Shown: one piece after another, positions 29,496 to 39,024 of the stretch | Layout of the letters: the number at the start of each line of letters is the position of its first letter | Position numbering within the stretch: position 1 is the stretch's first letter | Assembly: GCA_013140995.1 (NCBI GenBank) | Contig: JABFRX010000079.1 | Coordinates: 1-55,461 of the forward strand | Origin: Alphaproteobacteria bacterium | Lineage (GTDB): Bacteria > Pseudomonadota > Alphaproteobacteria > Micropepsales > Micropepsaceae | Direction: 5' to 3' | Length of the DNA stretch: 55,461 nt | The notes under the pieces: model-generated | What the model saw: only the letters and a program-made list of their open reading frames with translations | Databases searched by the model: none | What the model was told of the DNA's origin: nothing | Program-made: the position numbers and the translations under genes

Positions 29496-30905
29496 ATGGC
29501 TAACGCAGATACCGTCCTTAAGAAGATCAAGGACGAAGAGGTCAAATTCGTCGACCTGCGCTTCACCGATCCGCGCGGCAAGTGGCAGCACGTGACGTTC
29601 GACCTGTCGCTGATCGACAAGGATTTGTTCGAGACCGGTACGATGTTCGACGGATCGTCGATCGCCGGTTGGAAGGCGATCAACGAATCCGACATGACGC
29701 TGCTGCCCGACCCATCGACTGCGGTCATCGATCCGTTCTTCGCGCAGAAGACGCTGATCCTGTTTTGCGACGTACTTGAGCCGTCGACGCATCAGCCCTA
29801 TGGCCGCTGCCCGCGCTCGATCGCGAAAGCAGCCGAGAACTACATGAAATCGGCCGGCGTCGGCGACACGGCGATGTTTGGCCCGGAAGCCGAGTTCTTC
29901 ATCTTCGACGACGTCCGTCACTCTGTCTCGATGAACAAGGTCGGTTACGAAATCGACTCCGCCGAAGGTCCCTATAATACGAGCCGCGAATACGACCAGG
30001 GCAACCTTGGCCACCGCCCCCCGGTCAAGGGCGGCTACTTCCCGGTCCCGCCTGTCGATAGCTCACAAGACATCCGCTCCGAAATGCTCTCGATCATGGG
30101 CGACATGGGCATCGAGCCCGAGAAGCACCATCACGAAGTGGCGCCCTCGCAGCACGAACTCGGTTTCAAGTACTCGACGCTGGTGAAAACCGGCGACCGC
30201 ATGCAGATCTACAAATACGTGGTGCACCAGGTCGCGGCCGCCTACGGCAAGTCGGCAACTTTCATGCCCAAGCCGATCAAGGGCGACAACGGCTCGGGCA
30301 TGCACGTGCACCAGTCGATCTGGAAGGGCGGCCAGCCGCTGTTCGCGGGTTCGGGTTATGCCGACCTCAGCGAGATGTGCCTCTATTACATCGGCGGCAT
30401 TATCAAGCACGCCAAGGCGATCAACGCGCTGACCAATCCGCTGACGAACTCTTACAAACGCTTGATCCCGGGCTTCGAAGCGCCGGTGCTGCTCGCTTAC
30501 TCGTCCCGCAACCGTTCTGCGTCGATCCGCATTCCGTTTGGCGCCGGCCCGAAGGCCAAGCGCATCGAAGTGCGCTTCCCCGATCCGGGTGCCAATCCGT
30601 ATCTCGCCTACGCGGCGATGTTGATGGCGGGCCTCGACGGCATCCAGAACAAGATCCATCCGGGCCAGCCGATGGACAAGGACCTCTACGCACTGCCGCC
30701 GGAAGAACTGAAAGACGTGCCGCAGGTTTGCGGATCGTTGCGCGAATCGCTCGACAACCTCGACCGCAACCGCGCGTTCCTAAAGCGCGGCAACGTCTTC
30801 AGCGACGACTTCATCGACAGCTACATCGAACTAAAGATGCAGGAAGTGCACGCCTACGAACACACGCCGCACCCGATCGAGTTCCAGATGTATTATTCGG
30901 TGTAA
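29496..30905 (+). CDS. glnA: Type I glutamine synthetase
   Basis: This enzyme makes glutamine from glutamate, ammonia and ATP as a dodecamer. The 469 residues match GSI-beta. Conserved pieces are [17 protein letters not shown] (51 on), the metal-site EAEFFIFD (131 on), the ATP motif [16 protein letters not shown] (259 on) and the adenylylation site Tyr398 in [11 protein letters not shown]. That tyrosine means activity should be controlled by GlnE, coupled to PII. The start ATG has a strong AAGGAG 7 bp upstream. A clear terminator follows. Confidence 0.98.
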
Positions 30906-30932
30906 GGCGCGAGCCACGTTTCGCAATCACGA

Positions 30933-30962
30933 GGGTCGGGAGAAATTCCGGCCCTTTTTTTT
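30933..30962 (+). terminator. Rho-independent terminator of glnBA
   Basis: Stem GGGTCGG / CCGGCCC (30933-30939 and 30948-30954, one T-G pair) with an 8-nt loop, followed by eight T residues. Confidence 0.95.
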
Positions 30963-31029
30963 GTTGGTGCGGTCTCGTGCTAGGGATCGGCTGCATCGGG
31001 ATCGGCTGCGTGTGCGCGGAGCGAGCAGC

Positions 31030-31245
31030 GTGAACGATGATGTGACTAGGCTGGTTCGATATATCCAACTCACGATCGGCGTGCTTTGGATGTCGCTTAG
31101 CGGGGGCTGTGCCCTCTACTTCTTCAGCATTCTGGGCTCGCAAGCCATCGTGGTCGTCCTTGTGTTTCTGCCCGCCGGCCTCGCTATGGGCTGGGCGGTC
31201 GCAAGACCTGCGTTTCGGGCATTGATGAAGAGCAAAGATGAATAG
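31030..31245 (+). CDS. Small two-helix membrane protein, AtpI-like in shape, unknown function
   Basis: This is a 71-residue protein with a short charged N terminus (VNDDVTRLVRYIQLT), two hydrophobic segments (about 15-35 and 40-60) and a basic end KSKDE. The GTG start is chosen because GGAG lies 8 bp upstream; the frame is open farther 5' into the glnA terminator, which is unlikely to be coding. The layout recalls small ATP-synthase-assembly or transporter-accessory proteins, but there is no motif to support this. It stands alone between glnA and the repeat region. Confidence 0.55.
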   Translation: MNDDVTRLVRYIQLTIGVLWMSLSGGCALYFFSILGSQAIVVVLVFLPAGLAMGWAVARPAFRALMKSKDE

Positions 31246-31348
31246 TTGACGCCGTTCGCGATCACGAAATTCATGAGGTGTTTTGCGATGACGAAGCATC
31301 ACGTGGCTCGGAAGCGCTGAAGCACCCCGCTCTCGCGCAAGAATTCTA

Positions 31349-31377
31349 TTGACTTTCGCGCGGATTTGTTCTATCTT
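31349..31377 (+). promoter_or_regulatory. Strong sigma-70-type promoter with no protein gene behind it
   Basis: TTGACT (31349-31354), a 17-bp spacer and TATCTT (31372-31377) read toward the first repeat cluster. The predicted start is near 31384. The next plus-strand protein gene is over 11 kb away, so it appears to drive a short untranslated or leader-like RNA. Confidence 0.7.
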
Positions 31378-31425
31378 TGTTCTTTCAAATTCGATGCTCG
31401 AAAGCGGAGGCTCGTGAGCGGTTTA

Positions 31426-31558
31426 GGCGTTAGGGCTCTAACGCACGGGGCGTTACATGTAACGCCCCTCGTAACACCGTTGTAACGCCAAAATAGCGGT
31501 CGTCCGCCGATGTAACGGCGTAACGGACGAAATGATGTTGTTTTGCTCCAGACAGCGG
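31426..31558. repeat. Repeat cluster, copy 1 (core TAACG)
   Basis: Eight TAAC-type units occur within 100 bp: an inverted pair GCGTTAG/CTAACGC, a perfect 22-nt palindrome centred on TACATGTA (31447-31468), then direct repeats GTAACA, GTAACG, GTAACGG and GTAACGG around an imperfect GCGG/CCGC hairpin near 31495-31508. It aligns over its full length, including the end TGTTTTGCT, with copy 2 at 31628-31763. Confidence 0.9.
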
Positions 31559-31582
31559 TTCAGGAGGTTGCGTGCTTTTAGT

Positions 31583-31611
31583 CACCACGACTTCATGGTG
31601 TCCCTTTTTTT
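31583..31611 (+). terminator. Probable terminator of the candidate small RNA
   Basis: CACCA (31583-31587) pairs with TGGTG (31596-31600), extended imperfectly inward, and TCCC then seven T residues follow. The stem is short, so efficiency is uncertain. Confidence 0.6.
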
Positions 31612-31627
31612 ATTCACGCTCAACTTT

Positions 31628-31763
31628 GGCCGCTACGCGAGGGAGCATGGGGCCGCTACATGTAGCGGCGAGGTAGCGGCGCTGTAGCGGCAAAAACGGC
31701 GGACGTCCGCCAATGTAGCGGCGTTGCGGCTGAATTGAGTCTGTTTTGCTGCATCAAGCGCCG
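31628..31763. repeat. Repeat cluster, copy 2 (core TAGCG)
   Basis: Seven units on the same layout as copy 1, but with TAGCG in place of TAACG: CGCTACG, the perfect 18-nt palindrome GCCGCTACATGTAGCGGC (31652-31669), then GTAGCGG three times and a degenerate GTTGCGG. It contains the perfect palindrome GGCGGACGTCCGCC. Its last 10 bp overlap the 3' end of the glycosyltransferase gene at 31754. Confidence 0.9.
31692..31711 (-). terminator. Probable terminator of the minus-strand polysaccharide operon
   Basis: On the minus strand GGCGGACGTCCGCC (31711-31698) followed by GTTTTT lies 43 bp past the stop of the WecG-type gene. The same hairpin plus T-run exists in weaker form in copy 1, so it is part of the repeated unit. 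Confidence 0.65.
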
Positions 31764-32518
31764 CACCGGAGCGTTTGCCGAAGCACTTGGCCGCTCGCGA
31801 GGACGGCAAAACGCGGGGCGATAACAAGATAGCGGCGCCAGAGGCGCTTCGGTTCGGAGGTAAGACGATGAAGCCATTCGAGGCCGTTTTTCTGCATCCA
31901 AAGCGGAGCGCGTTTGACACGGCCGTTGTGGAAGTCGAACGCCGCGCCAACGCCGATCAGCGTGATGCCAGGCAACCGCGCGGCGTGATCGGCCATCCAG
32001 CGCTCCTGCTTCGGACAGCCCAGACCCACCCAAACGATGTCGGGTTTGGCGGCGCGGACTTCGTTCACAACCGCTTCGTCTTCGGCCTCGCTCAGCGGGC
32101 GGAACGGCGGACAGTGGGTGCCTGCGATGATCAGCCCCGGGTATTTCGACTTCAGGATTTGCGCGAGTTCGACGGCCACGCCCTCGGCGCCGCCGTAAAA
32201 ATAGTGGCGCCAGCCGCGCGCCTCAGAAGCGGCGCAAACTTCGGTAAGAAGATCGGGGCCGCACACCCGGGACATCGCCTTACGGCCCAGCGCCCTGCCC
32301 GTCCATACCAGCGGCATGCCGTCGGGGGTGACCATCGCGGCGCCGCGCATGCTGTCGCGATGCGCTGCGTTCGTGCGGGTGAGCATGACGCTGTGCACGT
32401 CGGCGACGCAGACGTAGCGGCACTGCGGCTGACCGATCCAACTGGCGAGCCGCGCGATCGCGGTGGGCATGTCGATGGCGCTGACCGGCGCACCCACGAT
32501 TTCGATCGTATCGTCCAT
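31754..32518 (-). CDS. WecG/TagA/CpsF family glycosyltransferase (GT26)
   Basis: A GT26 enzyme that adds N-acetylmannosaminuronate, N-acetylmannosamine or a similar sugar to a lipid-linked intermediate at the inner membrane. The 254 residues show the family core: DVHSVMLTR, the TPDGMPLVW stretch, CGPDLLTEVC, and AAKPDIVWVGLGCPKQERWM. In Caulobacter the holdfast transferase HfsJ belongs to this family. The start at MDDTIEIVG shares one base with the stop of the upstream gene (TGATG). It is the last gene of the operon. Confidence 0.9.
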   Translation of the reverse strand: MDDTIEIVGAPVSAIDMPTAIARLASWIGQPQCRYVCVADVHSVMLTRTNAAHRDSMRGAAMVTPDGMPLVWTGRALGRKAMSRVCGPDLLTEVCAASEARGWRHYFYGGAEGVAVELAQILKSKYPGLIIAGTHCPPFRPLSEAEDEAVVNEVRAAKPDIVWVGLGCPKQERWMADHAARLPGITLIGVGAAFDFHNGRVKRAPLWMQKNGLEWLHRLTSEPKRLWRRYLVIAPRFAVLASGQVLRQTLRCGA

Positions 32519-33468
32519 CAAGCCGCTCTGTTCTTGAGGAACCACTCGTATGTCCGCTCAAGACCTGTGCGCAGGCCGATCGCCGGGGACCAGCCGAGGG
32601 CGCGTAGCCGCCCGGAATCCATCAACTTACGCGGCGTGCCGTCGGGTTTCGCAGTGTCGCGGACAATCTTGCCCCGGAAGCCCACGACATCGGCGATCGT
32701 CTGCGTGAGATCGAAGATCGTGACGTCTTCGCCCGCACCGACGTTCACGTGGCTGTCGCCGGAATAGGATTTCATTAGGTGCACCAAAGCCGCTGCACAG
32801 TCGTCGACGTGAAGGAACTCCCGGCGCGGCGTGCCTGTCCCCCAGATCGCCATCTCCGGCGAATTGACCGCCTTTGCCTCATGGGCTTTGCGGATGAGCG
32901 CCGGGATCACGTGGCTGGATTGCAGGTCGAAGTTGTCGCCGGGACCATAGAGGTTCGTCGGCATCGCCGAGATGAAGTCCGCGCCGTGCTGCTTGCGATA
33001 GGCCTGGCAGAGCTTGATACCCGCAATCTTTGCGATCGCGTACCATTCGTTAGTGGGTTCGAGCGGTCCCGTCAGAAGCGCTTCTTCGGTGATAGGCTGG
33101 GGCGCGAATTTCGGGTAGATGCAACTCGACCCAAGGAACAAGAGCTTCGCGACCTTCGCACGGTGCGCGGCCTCGATGACGTTCGTTTCAATAACCAGAT
33201 TGTCGTAGAGAAAGTCGGCCGGATACGTGTCATTGGCAAGGATGCCGCCGACCTTGGCCGCTGCGAGGAAGACGGCGTCGGGTTTCGCGTCCGCGATCCA
33301 GGCGCGGGTGGCGGTTTGGTCTTTGAGGTCCACGCGCGTACGATCGGCGGTCAGGATCTCGCACCGCTCGCCGGCCAGACGGCGTACGATCGCGGCTCCC
33401 ACCATGCCGTTGTGTCCGGCGACGAGGACCCTCTTGCCCTGAAGGTCGAACGGAGCGTTAAGCGGCAT
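32518..33468 (-). CDS. fcl: GDP-L-fucose synthase
   Basis: This NADPH-dependent epimerase/reductase turns GDP-4-keto-6-deoxymannose into GDP-L-fucose. It is an SDR-type Rossmann protein of 316 residues with GHNGMVG at 18-24, LGSSCIYPK (112-120), and the catalytic pair Tyr143/Lys147 in EWYAIAK. The subfamily markers AAAKVGGI and REFLHVDD are typical of GDP-fucose synthases. It overlaps the end of gmd by 11 bp, so the two steps are encoded together. Confidence 0.95.
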
Positions 33469-34522
33469 GGGCCTTCATGTCCTCGCGCACCATTTCGGCG
33501 ACGAGTTCGCCGAAGCCGGTTTCATGACGCCAGCCAAGCACACGATGGGCCTTCGACGGGTCGCCGAGCAGCAAATCCACCTCGGTCGGGCGGAAGTAGC
33601 GGGGGTCGATCTCGATCAGTGTGCGGCCGGTTTTGGCGTCGCGGCCTTTTTCGGCGGCACCTTCGCCGGACCATTCGATGCGCGTGCCCCCTTCCGCGAA
33701 CGCGCGCTCCACAAACTCGCGCACCGAGCGAGTTTCACCCGTCGCCAGTACGTAATCGTCGGGTTTCGCTTGCTGCATCATAAGCCACATGCCGCGGACG
33801 TAGTCTTTCGCATGGCCCCAGTCGCGGCGCGCGTCGAGATTGCCGAGGTAAAGCTTGTCTTGTTTGCCCGCCTTGATCGCGGCAACGGCGCGCGTGACTT
33901 TGCGGGTGACGAAGGTTTCGCCGCGGATCGGGCTTTCGTGATTGAACAGGATACCGTTCGAGGCGTGCATACCGTACGCCTCGCGGTAGTTCACGACGAT
34001 CCAATAAGCGTAGAGCTTTGCGGCGGCGTAGGGGCTGCGCGGATAGAACGGCGTCGTCTCGCTTTGCGGCGTCTCAAGCGCTTTGCCGTAAAGTTCGGAC
34101 GTCGAGGCCTGATAGAAGCGCGTCTTGTTCGTGAGGCCCAGCAGACGGATCGCCTCAAGAAGGCGCAGTGGGCCTATGCCGTCGGCGTTCGCCGTGTACT
34201 CGGCGGTTTCGAAGCTCACTTGGACGTGCGACTGGGCGGCGAGATTGTAGATCTCGTCCGGCTGCGTTTGCTGCACGATACGGATCAGGTTCGTGGCGTC
34301 TGTCATGTCGCCGTAGTGAAGCACGAAGCGTTGGTTCTCGACATGTGGGTCTTGGTAGAGGTGTTCGATCCGGCCGGTGTTGAACGACGACGAGCGGCGT
34401 TTGATGCCGTGAACGACATAACCTTTCTCAAGCAGGAGTTCGGACAGATAGGCGCCATCTTGGCCGGTAACGCCTGTGATCAAGGCAACCTTGGCGGCGT
34501 CCCGTTTTGTCATGCCCTGCAC
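33458..34522 (-). CDS. gmd: GDP-mannose 4,6-dehydratase
   Basis: It converts GDP-D-mannose to GDP-4-keto-6-deoxy-D-mannose, the first step to GDP-L-fucose or GDP-rhamnose. The 354 residues show [16 protein letters not shown] near the N terminus, [10 protein letters not shown], the YAAAK catalytic pair and [16 protein letters not shown], all markers of the family. Two near-N-terminal ATGs are possible (34522 and 34513). It directly precedes fcl. It begins 42 bp downstream of a polysaccharide deacetylase. Confidence 0.97.
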
Positions 34523-34564
34523 TCCCGTGTTCGCTCAGTTGTTTGTGGAAGGCTTCGGCCCAAG

Positions 34565-35269
34565 TCAAGCAAACCAGTCGCGAAGGCGCTGATAGACGCG
34601 CGGCGGCAGAAGGCTGCGAGCCTTTTGCTTCAGATGGAAGGCGTGGAACGTAGCGGTGCCTGCCAGAAGCTTCTCGAATCGGCGGTCGCTGACGCTGCGC
34701 AACACCGGGACGGTGGGCAACAGCTCGCCCACGCCTTGATCTTTGAGTTCCGGCGCGTAGCCCCAGTCCATCGTGCGGACGAAGCGATAGCCGGTGCGAC
34801 GGGCGGCGGGCAAAGTACGGGCGTCGTAGAGCCCGCCCGGCGGCGCAAACCAGTCGACGCTGCGGCCGCACAGTTCCTGAAGGACATCGCGGGAGCAGCT
34901 CAGTTCTTCGTTCAAGGCCGTGTCGGTGACTTCGGGGAGTTGAGGGTGCGTGACCGTGTGGGAGCCCACGATCTGATCGAGGTCGATCAGGCGCGCCGCA
35001 TCGGTGCGGCGGAGGTAGCCCGGCGTGCCGAGCCGGTTGACCACCAGGAAGAAAACGCCGCGCAGGCCATGATCGGCGAGCACTTCGGCCGCGCGCAAAT
35101 GGTCCGCCGTGCCGTCATCGAACGTGAAGATAACCGGCATCGCCGGCCTGGTTGCCGCCACCTGCCGCACGTGCGCGCGGAACTGCGTCAGCGGCACGTC
35201 GTAAAACGTGGCTACGGCGCCGTCGTCCACGACGCGGTGGTAGGTGAGAATGAGCGACCGGTTCGGCAT
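34565..35269 (-). CDS. Polysaccharide deacetylase (NodB/CE4 family)
   Basis: A metal-dependent deacetylase of 234 residues that removes N- or O-acetyl groups from a surface glycan. The catalytic/metal motif TFDDGTADH (D51, D52) and the zinc-ligand motif HTVTH (H104, H108) are intact, as is FAPPGGLYD. There is no signal peptide, so it may act in the cytoplasm or be held at the membrane face, as is also the case for Caulobacter HfsH. It lies 12 bp after the sugar transferase gene. Confidence 0.9.
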   Translation of the reverse strand: MPNRSLILTYHRVVDDGAVATFYDVPLTQFRAHVRQVAATRPAMPVIFTFDDGTADHLRAAEVLADHGLRGVFFLVVNRLGTPGYLRRTDAARLIDLDQIVGSHTVTHPQLPEVTDTALNEELSCSRDVLQELCGRSVDWFAPPGGLYDARTLPAARRTGYRFVRTMDWGYAPELKDQGVGELLPTVPVLRSVSDRRFEKLLAGTATFHAFHLKQKARSLLPPRVYQRLRDWFA

Positions 35270-35281
35270 CGGAGGCAGCGC

Positions 35282-36811
35282 CTAATGCGCGTTCCTTTGC
35301 CGCAAAACCTCGACGCATGTCAGCAGCAAAATTTTCACATCGAGCGCAAGGCTTGCGTTCTTCGCGTACCAGATGTCGAATTCGACGCGGCGGCGCATTT
35401 GCTCGGGCGACTCCGTCGGGCCGCGCAGGCCGTTGACCTGGGCCCAGCCGGTCATGCCAGGCTTCACATGCTGGCGGACCTCGTAGTTCTCGATCAAGTC
35501 GCCGTAGTGGCGGTCCATCGACATCGCATGCGGACGCGGGCCAACCAACGACATTTCGCCCCGGACGACGTTCAAAAGCTGCGGCAGCTCGTCGATGCTG
35601 AGACGGCGCAGCCACCGGCCGACGCCGGTGATGCGGTTGTCGCCTTGGCGGGCTTGCTTCACGTCGTCGCCGTTCTCGGTGACGGTCATCGTGCGGAATT
35701 TGTAGATAGCAAACGGTGCACCGCGCAGCCCAAGTCGCGTTTGTTTGAAGAGGACGGGTCCCTTCGAGTCCAAACGGACCGCGGCGGCGACGAGCAAGAG
35801 CATCGGCAAGATCGCGATCATGCCGGCCGTGGCGAGCGTTACGTCAAGGGCACGCTTTGCCATCAACTGAAAGGTATTCAACGGTGTGCGTTGCAGCTCG
35901 ATGGCGTAGAGCCCACCGATGCTTCGAACCGGGAAGTGCAGAAACTGTTCGATCGCGGGGCTTGGCACTACGCGCACCGCGCGCGGCACGATCTGCAAGC
36001 CTGCGATGACTTCTCTCAAGCGGTTCTCCGGGAAACCGCCGGCCGCGATGCAGATCTCCCCGTGCACGCCGGTATGCGCGCGCTGGATGACGCGCTCAAT
36101 CACCCGCGACAGTTCCCACTGCCATTCGTGCGCGGCGGCGCTTGCTCTAAACGTAATGACATGCGGCGAGGCGTGCCCCGCCGCTTCCAATTCGCCAAGC
36201 AGAGTGTTTACGGCCGTATCACCTTCGGCGCCGACGACGATCACCTGATGATCCATGAACTTGGAAGAGCGCAGATACTTTGCGGCCATAGCCGGAACGA
36301 AGCTTCGAACTGCAATCACGCCAGCATAACCCAAGACCATGAACGAGAGCATGAAGCCGCGCGAAAGCGTGGCGCCGGCTTTGAAGGAAAATGCGAAGAA
36401 CGTCACCAAAAGGATCGTGACGACCCACACGACCGTTACGTCGCGCATCGCCTCGATGCCCGAGACATTGCGAAACCGTTGGTTGGCCTCGATGCCCCGC
36501 ATGGCGCCACAGAAGAAGATGGCGGAGAGCAAGCCGATCGCCGTCCACAGAACAAGATGCCCTGCGGTGCCGAGAACCAGCCAATGGTAAGCCTCGCCAG
36601 CGAGAATGCTCATGAGGACGATCACGAACGCCTCGGTGACGCCGAGTGCCAATTGCACGGCCGCGGTCGGTTGCGTTTGCTGCGCACGGCGCGGTTCGAG
36701 CGTTGGAACGACATGCAGCTTCAGCCGCTTTTGTTGCGCGGCATCGGCGACGCTCTCGCTTGCTGCGCCGGAACCGATCTCACCGGTGTCGTCGTGCTGA
36801 TGGCTCTTCAC
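35282..36811 (-). CDS. Polyprenyl glycosylphosphotransferase (WcaJ/PssY type, chain priming)
   Basis: This enzyme transfers the first sugar-1-phosphate onto undecaprenyl phosphate. The 509 residues begin with four transmembrane helices (52-77, 83-104, 123-145, 152-175), then a CoA-binding-like Rossmann domain (about 187-290), a fifth helix, and the bacterial sugar-transferase domain from about 318 (KRALDVTLA, YKFRTM, the DELPQLLNVVRGEMSLVGPRP motif). The glucose/galactose preference cannot be read from sequence. It overlaps the start of the wzc gene's stop by ATGA. Confidence 0.95.
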   Translation of the reverse strand: MKSHQHDDTGEIGSGAASESVADAAQQKRLKLHVVPTLEPRRAQQTQPTAAVQLALGVTEAFVIVLMSILAGEAYHWLVLGTAGHLVLWTAIGLLSAIFFCGAMRGIEANQRFRNVSGIEAMRDVTVVWVVTILLVTFFAFSFKAGATLSRGFMLSFMVLGYAGVIAVRSFVPAMAAKYLRSSKFMDHQVIVVGAEGDTAVNTLLGELEAAGHASPHVITFRASAAAHEWQWELSRVIERVIQRAHTGVHGEICIAAGGFPENRLREVIAGLQIVPRAVRVVPSPAIEQFLHFPVRSIGGLYAIELQRTPLNTFQLMAKRALDVTLATAGMIAILPMLLLVAAAVRLDSKGPVLFKQTRLGLRGAPFAIYKFRTMTVTENGDDVKQARQGDNRITGVGRWLRRLSIDELPQLLNVVRGEMSLVGPRPHAMSMDRHYGDLIENYEVRQHVKPGMTGWAQVNGLRGPTESPEQMRRRVEFDIWYAKNASLALDVKILLLTCVEVLRQRNAH

Positions 36812-39024
36812 GACTGCGCACGCCTTTCGGTCTTCGGGTGAATGGAGAATTGGAGCAGGTGGGGTTTGCTGCTGCTGTCGGCTTCATCGCCGATGTAGTC
36901 GCGATATGCCCCACGCGGATCGGCGGCGGAGCGCGTCAACGCCACACCGGCGACCCGGGCGTGCATCGTCCGCAACGCTCTGACCGCCGCAAGTACATCC
37001 TCGCGCGACGTTCGTCCGGCGTGGACCAAGAGAAGCGTCGCATCCGCGATGCGCGTCAGCGGCCAGGTATCGTGCACGGGCAGCAACGGTGCCGCATCGA
37101 CGATGACGAGATCGTATTTGGCTTTTAGGTTAGCTAGCAGCGCTTCCATCGCGCCAGATGCCAGCGTCTCCGAAGGATCGCGCACGGCTTCGTTGCAGGC
37201 AAGAACGCTGACCCCGGGCAAAAGCTCGTCGGTCATCATGCAACGTTCGACCGGGAGGTCGCCCTTCAACGCTTGCGCGATGCCGCCGAAGGCCGTGCTG
37301 ACGTTCATCGCGCGCGCCAAAGACGGGCGCCGGAAGTCCGCTTCCACCAGAGCGACTTTGCGGCCGGTCTTGGCTGCCAAGCGGGCAAGGCTCGCCGCGA
37401 CGACTGTCTTGCCTTCACCGCCGACGGCGGACGTCACCAAGATAACCTTTGGCGGCGATGTGCCGGCATCCATTGTCATAAGGCTCAAATTCAGGCCGCG
37501 GATCGACTCGGTGAACGAAGAGCCTGCCCGGCGCACGACCGCCGCCTGCGGTTCGACGCCGTCTTTCATCTCGGGTACGACGGCGAGCACGCGCAGGCCC
37601 ACACTACGCTCGACTTGGTCGCCGCGGCGGAAGCTCGAATCCATGCCCTCCATGAGGAAGGCGAGCACGAGCCCGAGCGCGAGGCCGGCCGGAATGGCGA
37701 CACCGAACACGGTGCTGAATTTCGGGGACGCAGTCGTTGGCGCGACCGCACGCGATACGATCCGCGTGTCCGGCGCCGCAAAGCCTTCTTGGCCTTGCAC
37801 TTCCTTCAGGCGCGAGAGAAGCGCTTCGTACATCGAACGGCTGGAGGCCGCGATCGACTGCAACCCTTTGAGCTTCGCAGACGCGTTGTTCTGCTGGCCG
37901 AACTGCGACTGTAGCTGCTTGAGGCTAAACTCGAGAGAGGCCACATTCGCGCGGGCGACAGCCACGTCGTTGGCCAGACCTTCTACGACACGGTTGACCT
38001 CAATCCCGATCTTTCCCCTGACGTCGCGCATCTGCGCGCGGAGATCGATCATCTTCGGGTGCTGGGGAAGATAGCGCGCCGTCAGCTCTGCCTCTTGCCC
38101 CGTTAGGTTCGCTTCCTGAATGCGCAGTTGACCGATCAAAGGCGAGGCGACGACTTGCGACGCGTCTGCCGCGCGGCCCGCACGCTTGAGTTCGGCCACA
38201 CGCCCGTAGAGCGCCGCCTTTTGTGCAAGGTCGGCCCTTGCGGTGATCAGCTGGCCGCTGACGTTGGCGGTTTGCTGATCGATGATCGAGCCGCCCGCGG
38301 TCGTATCCACGATGCCGTGCTCAGCCTTGTAGGCTTGAACGGCGATCTCGTCTGCCTGCACCTGCGGCGCAAGCTGACGCACGCGGTTCGCAAGCCACGT
38401 TGCGGTTTGCTGCGTCGCTTCGAACTTCGAGTTCATTTGGTCTTCGAGGTACGCATCCGCCCACGCATTCGTCAGCAACGCCGACTTTTCGGGATTGGTC
38501 GAGCCGATGCTCAGATTGATCGTCGTCGAGACACCGACTTGTTCGACGCTCAAGCGCTTGAGGACGCGATCGATGGTAGCCTCGAATTGAGGGGTACCCG
38601 ACCGCGATCCCGCTGCATCGAGCGCGCCGCGCATCCCAAAGACGCCGAAGAGACCCGCGCTTGTGCTGAACTCCGGATCGTGGTCCAGGCCGAGCTTCGT
38701 GACCACCTGCGCGGCGAGCTTTCGCGAGGCGATGATCTGGAGCTGGTTCTGCATCGAAGCGGTGTCCGTTGGAATACCGCTGAGCACCGCGTTGACGTCG
38801 GCCACGGTGTTCCGCCGCTGATCCAGCATCATGACGGCGGTCGCGTTATAGGTCTTCTGCGTGAAAACGAACCAAACCAGCGTCAACGCCAGCACGGTAG
38901 CCATCGTGCCTGCAACGATGCGCCAGCGTGCGCGCAAAATTCCAATGAGCGCCGGGATGTCGAACGATTGACCATCCACCGCGACCGGTTCCGGGCTCTC
39001 TTGATACTCAAGACGGGTACTCAT
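36808..39024 (-). CDS. Wzc-type chain-length protein with BY-kinase domain
   Basis: An inner-membrane polysaccharide co-polymerase fused to a tyrosine kinase (738 residues). A Wzz domain with its first helix at about 35-55 is followed by a long coiled coil (about 200-410) and a second helix near 450 (VFGVAIPAGLALGLVLAFL). The kinase has Walker A GGEGKT at 535-540, Walker A-prime VALVEADFRRP at 557-567 and Walker B LVIVDAAP at 639-646. The tail has just two tyrosines, Y707 and Y710, so autophosphorylation would be limited to these. It resembles HfsA/ExoP. Confidence 0.95.
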   Translation of the reverse strand: MSTRLEYQESPEPVAVDGQSFDIPALIGILRARWRIVAGTMATVLALTLVWFVFTQKTYNATAVMMLDQRRNTVADVNAVLSGIPTDTASMQNQLQIIASRKLAAQVVTKLGLDHDPEFSTSAGLFGVFGMRGALDAAGSRSGTPQFEATIDRVLKRLSVEQVGVSTTINLSIGSTNPEKSALLTNAWADAYLEDQMNSKFEATQQTATWLANRVRQLAPQVQADEIAVQAYKAEHGIVDTTAGGSIIDQQTANVSGQLITARADLAQKAALYGRVAELKRAGRAADASQVVASPLIGQLRIQEANLTGQEAELTARYLPQHPKMIDLRAQMRDVRGKIGIEVNRVVEGLANDVAVARANVASLEFSLKQLQSQFGQQNNASAKLKGLQSIAASSRSMYEALLSRLKEVQGQEGFAAPDTRIVSRAVAPTTASPKFSTVFGVAIPAGLALGLVLAFLMEGMDSSFRRGDQVERSVGLRVLAVVPEMKDGVEPQAAVVRRAGSSFTESIRGLNLSLMTMDAGTSPPKVILVTSAVGGEGKTVVAASLARLAAKTGRKVALVEADFRRPSLARAMNVSTAFGGIAQALKGDLPVERCMMTDELLPGVSVLACNEAVRDPSETLASGAMEALLANLKAKYDLVIVDAAPLLPVHDTWPLTRIADATLLLVHAGRTSREDVLAAVRALRTMHARVAGVALTRSAADPRGAYRDYIGDEADSSSKPHLLQFSIHPKTERRAQS

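Follow-up and report, generated by a model that had tools for sequence, protein, structure and literature searches.

The two repeat clusters of the window (the whole stretch of DNA that was analysed, 55,461 nt) are, as read from sequence, members of a family of arrays with a rigid framework, distinct core dialects, copies borne by DUF3631 genes, an association with LexA-type boxes and, at some orthologous sites, a switched dialect. We consider it likely that these are iteron arrays, the predicted sites of an SOS-controlled, initiator-derived DUF3631 protein, and that the sites change along as its specificity drifts. The tens of scattered arrays are probably landing sites of a replication-initiator-like protein under DNA-damage control, and their recognition letters seem to change together with the DUF3631 protein from species to species. 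Binding of this protein to the arrays, SOS induction and the role of the arrays are predictions of this reading.

The original prediction described two paralogous clusters aligning over their full length with the parts in the same order, and we saw the same arrangement in the letters (Table 1), the mean column identity being 76% over a stretch slightly wider than both segments. The uniform TAAC core claimed for the first copy is present in 8 of 8 units (GTAAC, or GTTAC/GTTAG when inverted), and the copy's single TAGC, near 31494, is part of the inner dyad and lies outside the units. The second copy was likewise described correctly, with TAGC in six of the seven units and GTTGCG as the final one. 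A LexA-type box near copy 1, GTTCTATCTTTGTTC, was missing from that description; it overlaps the sole promoter-like site detected in 30900-32400. Terminator-like sites are more frequent in the region than in shuffled sequence (5 versus 1.8).

Table 1. Features of the two arrays and their surroundings (positions in the window)
Feature	Position	Strand	Basis
Sigma-70-like promoter TTGACT-N17-TATCTT, directed into copy 1	31349..31377	+	consensus match only
LexA-type (SOS) box, overlapping the -10 of the promoter	31368..31382	+	sequence match
Array copy 1, GTAACG dialect; A-run and inner dyad near 31495-31508	31426..31558	+	letters, alignment, model match
Copy 1 outer inverted pair CGTTAG / CTAACG	31428..31443	.	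letters
Copy 1 left arm L2 CGTTAC (31451-31456) and unit R1 GTAACG (31459-31464), around TACATGTA	31451..31464	.	
Copy 1 units R2 GTAACA (31471-31476) and R3 GTAACG (31482-31487)	31471..31487	+	
Copy 1 units R4 GTAACG (31512-31517) and R5 GTAACG (31520-31525)	31512..31525	+	
Terminator-like hairpin with T run, between copy 1 and copy 2	31583..31610	+	
Array copy 2, GTAGCG dialect	31628..31763	+	letters, alignment, model match
Copy 2 outer left unit L1 CGCTAC	31631..31636	-	
Copy 2 left arm L2 CGCTAC (31654-31659) and unit R1 GTAGCG (31662-31667)	31654..31667	.	
Copy 2 units R2 GTAGCG (31673-31678) and R3 GTAGCG (31684-31689)	31673..31689	+	
Copy 2 A run and inner dyad GGCGGACGTCCGCC	31692..31712	.	
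Copy 2 units R4 GTAGCG (31715-31720) and R5 GTTGCG (31723-31728)	31715..31728	+	

The window's genome (G000) is a MAG of 4.04 Mb in 319 contigs, 94% complete. A DNA search of it found 14 more places on other contigs (E <= 1.7e-6), and a sequence-only model of the first class of arrays, built from 19 copies, gave 28 matches at E <1e-6, including its 19 building sequences and both window copies. With this model, 10 of the 11 genomes of the genus gave matches, among them G004 (64% complete) with three, the best at E 1.6e-9; the exception is G008 (86% complete), with none. The family is spread genome-wide, which could not be seen from the window alone. Outside the genus, weak matches occurred in 2 of 50 genomes (E 5e-4 and 0.007), and among 385 genomes drawn from the class under stricter filters, four besides G000 had one match each (E 2e-5 to 6e-5), which we regard as probable chance matches. 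In the sister genus, genome G027 has two dispersed arrays, L054 and L064, with GTAGCGGT units and without a LexA box. Their framework is looser, and L064 has several GTAGCGGT units at 10-bp steps.

The framework of most arrays is rigid: a left arm CGNNAC is followed by units GTNNCG at 0, +11 and +22, an A/T run, a GGC-N8-GCC dyad and units at +53 and +61, so that R1-R3 and R4-R5 enclose an A/T run of 3-5 and the GC dyad. The AT content between and around the unit sets is 0.43-0.53, not clearly raised, and no AT-rich unwinding element was seen at the arrays. Many arrays are missing the left arm (9 of 9 in G001, several in G009 and G010), and the orientation of the arrays relative to GC skew has no bias in G002 (7 of 17). 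A rival idea is that of a transcribed, structured RNA whose core covaries to keep its hairpins. In its favour, the promoters suggest transcription through the arrays, and the stretch folds better than its shuffles (z -3.24); yet R2-R5 are direct repeats without pairing partners, the left arm is so often absent, and an Rfam search of the stretch gave two matches only, both far under their gathering scores. We regard an RNA element as very improbable.

Core letters were tabulated with a core-free spacing template for 98 arrays from nine genomes of the genus, three of which gave one array each. The table is drawn from a fetched subset of the matches to the 19-copy model. Window copy 1 and some other arrays deviate from the template; copy 1 is absent from the 23 template-fitting G000 arrays because its R3-R4 spacing is 30, not 31. 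The dialects differ between genomes and, in some, within them: GTAGCG, or GTAACG/GTTACG, in G000; GTAGCG in G001; GTTACG with GTAGCG at R2 in G002, plus one GTGAYG array; GTTACG mixed with GTGACG in G007; GTGAYG in G009; GTGATG, or GTTACG/GTTGCG, in G010; and, read separately, GTAACG/GCAACG in G003. Five tandem pairs in G000 (the window, L002, L004, L007 and L013) each combine an array of the GTAGCG dialect with one of the GTAACG or GTTACG type. The lone GTGAYG array of G002 (L089) carries a LexA-type box, the other first-class arrays of that genome being GTTACG, and it could be a relic or a newcomer.

For each genome, we compared the agreement of unit cores within arrays with that in 5000 shuffles of the units among arrays. 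The concerted cores noted in the window exceed chance in G000, where agreement was 0.881 against a shuffle mean of 0.419 and a maximum of 0.529 (23 arrays, 110 units), and agreement was also above chance in G010 (0.735 versus 0.378), the observed value being reached in none of the 5000 shuffles in either genome. The test fails in G002 (0.398 versus 0.353, reached in 404 of 5000) and is marginal in G007 (244 of 5000); it says little in G009 (193 of 5000) and G001 (5000 of 5000), each having nearly one dialect. As the original prediction expected, many loci have cores that differ from locus to locus and are mostly uniform within each, an array in the genus usually having a single dialect.

The G002 arrays are patterned by position, with GTAGCG at R2 in 14 of 17 tabulated arrays and GTTACG at R3 in 13 of 16 dispersed ones. 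Similarly, R3 is GTTGCG in 9 of 15 dispersed arrays of G010, and the R2 unit type is also position-specific in G003. The original prediction had offered the spreading of a repeat unit inside each cluster as one explanation, and this is not supported because homogenisation would erase unit types that recur at the same position across arrays. Gene conversion spreading one unit within each cluster would account for the uniform cores in G000 and G010, but the units are moreover only 6 bp long, partly inverted and unevenly spaced, and we hold this explanation to be extremely improbable. The other explanation offered, a sequence-specific reader with two specificities, is supported in its protein version, given the dialects and the link to DUF3631 described below, although the failed test in G002 and the marginal one in G007 count against a simple form of it.

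Comparison of flanks revealed homologous genes preceding arrays L010, L035, L072 and L110, and Pfam identified all four proteins as DUF3631 (PF12307) above the curated cut-off. A protein search detected DUF3631 in 9 of the 11 genus genomes and in 1 of 26 others; the PF12307 profile hit the genus in 9 of 11 genomes and 4 of 85 others, making 13 of 96 for the order. Fourteen such genes are known from the genus, 1-2 per genome, with none found in the incomplete G004 (64%) and G008 (86%). An array lies at the 3' end of 11 of the 14, the gene ending at or inside it; among the remaining three, the gene of G003 is cut by a contig end, and no array was seen at G001b and the phage-like G010b. A repeat array, without a LexA box, is found at the 3' end of the DUF3631 gene of genome G027, from the sister genus, as well. 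The original prediction had suggested looking for a co-occurring gene family, and DUF3631 is one, with a 3'-end array usually of the matching dialect. Several genes (G000a, G000b, G002a, G010a, G001a and others) terminate on a stop codon that lies in a unit of their own array, TAG, TAA or TGA depending on the dialect.

The cited passages of PMC3218068 identify PF12307/DUF3631 as RepAM, the protein that initiates replication of actinomycete ICEs such as pMEA300. Walker A, judged by eye, is degenerate in 9 of the 14 proteins and intact in 5, and a helicase role therefore cannot be general. A PHROGs scan of four DUF3631 proteins at E 0.1 gave no match, and no HUH or transposase domain was found in the linked proteins, for which Pfam reported DUF3631 only. 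The AlphaFold model of a G002a-type protein is poor (mean pLDDT 63, residues 1-139 unreliable); its best Foldseek matches are MCM subunits, with the NrS-1 helicase, PriRep1 and AAV Rep40 lower down and TM-scores near 0.25-0.35 on the query. The order of helices and strands in the C-terminal part of the model suggests a winged helix. A sequence search of solved structures gave a single hit with E 0.19, which was taken as chance.

The DUF3631 genes G002b, G005 and G006 carry arrays of another kind (NNAACG, the second class). At E<=0.01, a second-class model built solely from these three gene-borne arrays matched the respective genomes 17, 20 and 10 times, gene-borne ones included, which leaves 16, 19 and 9 beyond them. 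Some of the second-class matches represent parts of a single array or coincide in part with first-class ones (in G000 four of the 20, by reading). The gene-borne array thus announced a dispersed set in all three owning genomes. Elsewhere, the model gave 20 matches in G000 and 0, 0, 0, 0, 0, 1 and 2 in seven other genomes, and the three stray matches in non-owning genomes all lie on first-class arrays. Among the ten gene arrays scorable by the similarity of unit letters, the own-genome arrays had the top score for six and shared it for two, a score that is confounded by relatedness; the gene arrays of G007a and G006 are not closest to the arrays of their own genomes. The gene array of G001a agrees with the dialect of its genome, and that of G003 was unscorable.

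It is conceivable that another protein reads the arrays and that DUF3631 genes carry one merely as targets. Dialects whose cognate gene was not found speak for this: G000 has its 20 second-class matches with no gene of that clade, G010 its GTTACG/GTTGCG arrays and G002 its GTGAYG array, L089, the MAGs being incomplete. Three observations make such a reader distinctly unlikely, namely that the array sits at the 3' end of most DUF3631 genes as it does in SaPI/PICI rep-ori modules, that DUF3631 is the RepAM initiator, and that presence and absence of arrays track the gene.

A LexA-type box, GTTC-N7-GTTC, lies on the same strand within <=250 nt upstream of 46 of the 96 arrays with enough flank (5/23 in G000, 0/9 in G001, 15/17 in G002, 0/1 in G004, 1/1 in G005, 4/7 in G007, 12/22 in G009 and 9/16 in G010). 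None of the 96 has it within <=250 nt downstream, and one has it reversed upstream. Second-class arrays gave the same picture, with a box upstream of 11 of 22 and downstream of 0 of 22 (27 of the 70 matches examined, three gene-borne and two short-flank ones being left out). As background, 375,723 bp around the G002 arrays contain 33 boxes on both strands, the arrays' own included, and the box is found, reversed, upstream of recA in 7 of the 8 genus genomes examined. About half of the arrays outside G001 are without an exact box, and in G001 it is absent from genes and arrays alike.

The promoters of 10 of the 14 DUF3631 genes contain the box (G000a, G000b, G002a, G002b, G003, G005, G006, G007a, G007b and G010a); that of G009 has an imperfect one, and G001a, G001b and G010b have none. 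Most gene-borne arrays lack a separate box but lie downstream of the box of the DUF3631 gene. The upstream-only position of the boxes, together with the placing of gene-borne arrays behind the gene's box, gave us the idea that transcription into the array may matter. We dropped the notion that the arrays are internal deletions of the DUF3631 gene, the box lying over the -10 at dispersed arrays versus between -35 and -10 in the gene promoters printed.

An exact 12-mer, GCTGCRACTTGA, occurs 45-179 nt before 21 of 120 arrays, with 0 downstream and 0 reversed. Its carriers include L092-L097, L099, L111, L178, L181, L182, L275, L279, L284 and L288, and where a LexA box is present, the 12-mer usually lies 29-37 nt past it. 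A hairpin precedes it in some modules and is not general. We take it to resemble the rolling-circle nick sites of phiX174 and pC194. The passages cited from PMC10378824 name CTTGATA as the nick site of a dso.

Several arrays occupy the same place in different genomes. L041 of G000 (GTTACG) and L273 of G005 (CTAACG) have both flanks in common by blastn of the loci and differ in dialect. Both flanks are shared too by L010/L072, and by L152/L183, L274/L276 and L280/L281, the last three having the same or near dialects. One flank is common to L162/L171, L156/L186/L264, L086/L277/L282, L002/L097, L076/L100 and others, which could be separate insertions; between L162 and L171, the alignment runs through the dyad and the units, and the core is altered in the units. 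Among G002b, G005, G006 and G007a, whose gene loci are orthologous, four dialects occur. At proS, the array is intact in G000 and decayed in G005, and inspection by eye revealed none in the remaining nine genomes of the genus. L014 of G000 and L082 of G002 share both flanks and one intergenic region, and the two arrays are oppositely oriented.

A rival explanation is a selfish population of sites, REPIN/RAYT-like, the DUF3631 gene and its array being autonomous and the dispersed arrays tolerated, non-autonomous copies that spread. We rate this as possible, if on the unlikely side. The occurrence of dispersed copies between genes alongside one or two cognate genes, the partial turnover of positions between species, the scattered fate of the proS array and the opposite orientation of L014 and L082 are consistent with it; copying alone, however, does not give a site that kept its place and changed its dialect, as at L041/L273. 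Such a population would also have to do with a protein that has no HUH or transposase domain by Pfam and with LexA promoters aimed at the arrays, and no insertion boundary or target duplication was established. REPIN/REP sequences with their RAYT (TnpA-REP) share with the arrays the dispersed intergenic population, the cognate protein gene and the lineage-specific sequence classes, whereas RAYTs are HUH transposases and we find an initiator-like protein, ordered multi-unit arrays and SOS-type promoters. Readings as integron attC sites or retrons were dropped, the arrays being dispersed and linked to a DUF3631 gene.

Among known replication modules, the SaPI/PICI islands come close: in the cited parts of PMC6092414 and PMC7581432, their origin lies directly 3' of rep and has two iteron sets with a stretch between, and in SaPIs the C-terminal part of Rep reads the iterons. 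The position of the iterons directly 3' of a helicase-like initiator gene is shared by 11 of 14 DUF3631 genes. Unlike what those parts describe, there are here tens of further chromosomal arrays, LexA-type promoters, no island genes seen beside the arrays, no clear AT-rich stretch, and a Walker A lost in most of the proteins. RepAM of the pMEA300-type ICEs belongs to the same Pfam family, but it resides in an integrating conjugative element of Actinobacteria, and dispersed arrays are unmentioned in the cited part of PMC3218068. The bind locus of the pMV158 rolling-circle origin consists, in the cited part of PMC9943647, of three 11-bp direct repeats 84 bp downstream of the nick site; our units also stand at 11-bp steps with a nick-like GCTGCRACTTGA before some arrays, but most arrays are without GCTGCRACTTGA, and DUF3631 is no HUH nuclease by Pfam match. 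The oriV of plasmid RA3, placed at the 3' end of its rep gene and activated by transcription according to the cited part of PMC9455977, is there one plasmid origin and not dispersed. Among the titles listed in searches of open-licence papers, none pointed to such a system. What is new relative to known initiator-iteron pairs is how many chromosomal sites there are, that they have LexA-type promoters and that the dialect changes across a genus.

Under the iteron reading, which we prefer, the arrays would be ordered sets of sites at which a DUF3631 (RepAM-type) protein binds the DNA, a protein that descends from the replication initiator of a mobile element. DNA damage would act through the LexA-type promoters, so that the DUF3631 protein is made and the arrays are transcribed through. 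Several paralogs in one genome would give several dialects side by side: in G000, the gene on contig C214 would be the partner of the GTAGCG arrays and the gene on contig C243 that of the GTAACG/GTTACG arrays, and the window would hold one candidate landing site of each kind, adjacent to each other. As the specificity of the protein drifts, its sites would have to follow, giving the concerted change of the core. The most likely role of an array would be that of an origin-like site at which occupancy and transcription control each other. The full form of this scheme, in which a domesticated plasmid or island initiator has tens of SOS-inducible origin-like sites, damage leads to replication or a protein roadblock at many places, and the code drifts between species with all sites following, appears to us rather doubtful.

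The usual arrangement pairs one initiator with a single origin; here, tens of damage-controlled chromosomal sites seem to belong to one protein. Its code would have changed several times inside one genus, partly at sites that stayed put, offering a natural experiment on how DNA-binding specificity can shift while dozens of sites must change along. The system may also represent a component of the SOS response that has not been described before.

Two smaller observations concern the surroundings of the arrays. A sequence resembling the inner dyad, GGCGGATTTGCGC, is conserved ~85-100 nt before proS in several genomes of the genus (L141, L144-L146, L148); we did not count it as an array remnant, and it sits about where the -35 of proS would be. 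In the window, the arrays are followed on the minus strand by an exopolysaccharide-like gene cluster (31754-39024), named by eye from translations, with WecG-like, sugar transferase and Wzc-like members, GDP-sugar enzymes and a deacetylase. No array was seen by eye beside the wecG of G005 (74% identity), the only copy read, and wecG was detected in 4 of the 11 genus genomes. A small ORF on the plus strand (31035-31245), likely encoding a membrane protein, lies between glnA and the arrays.
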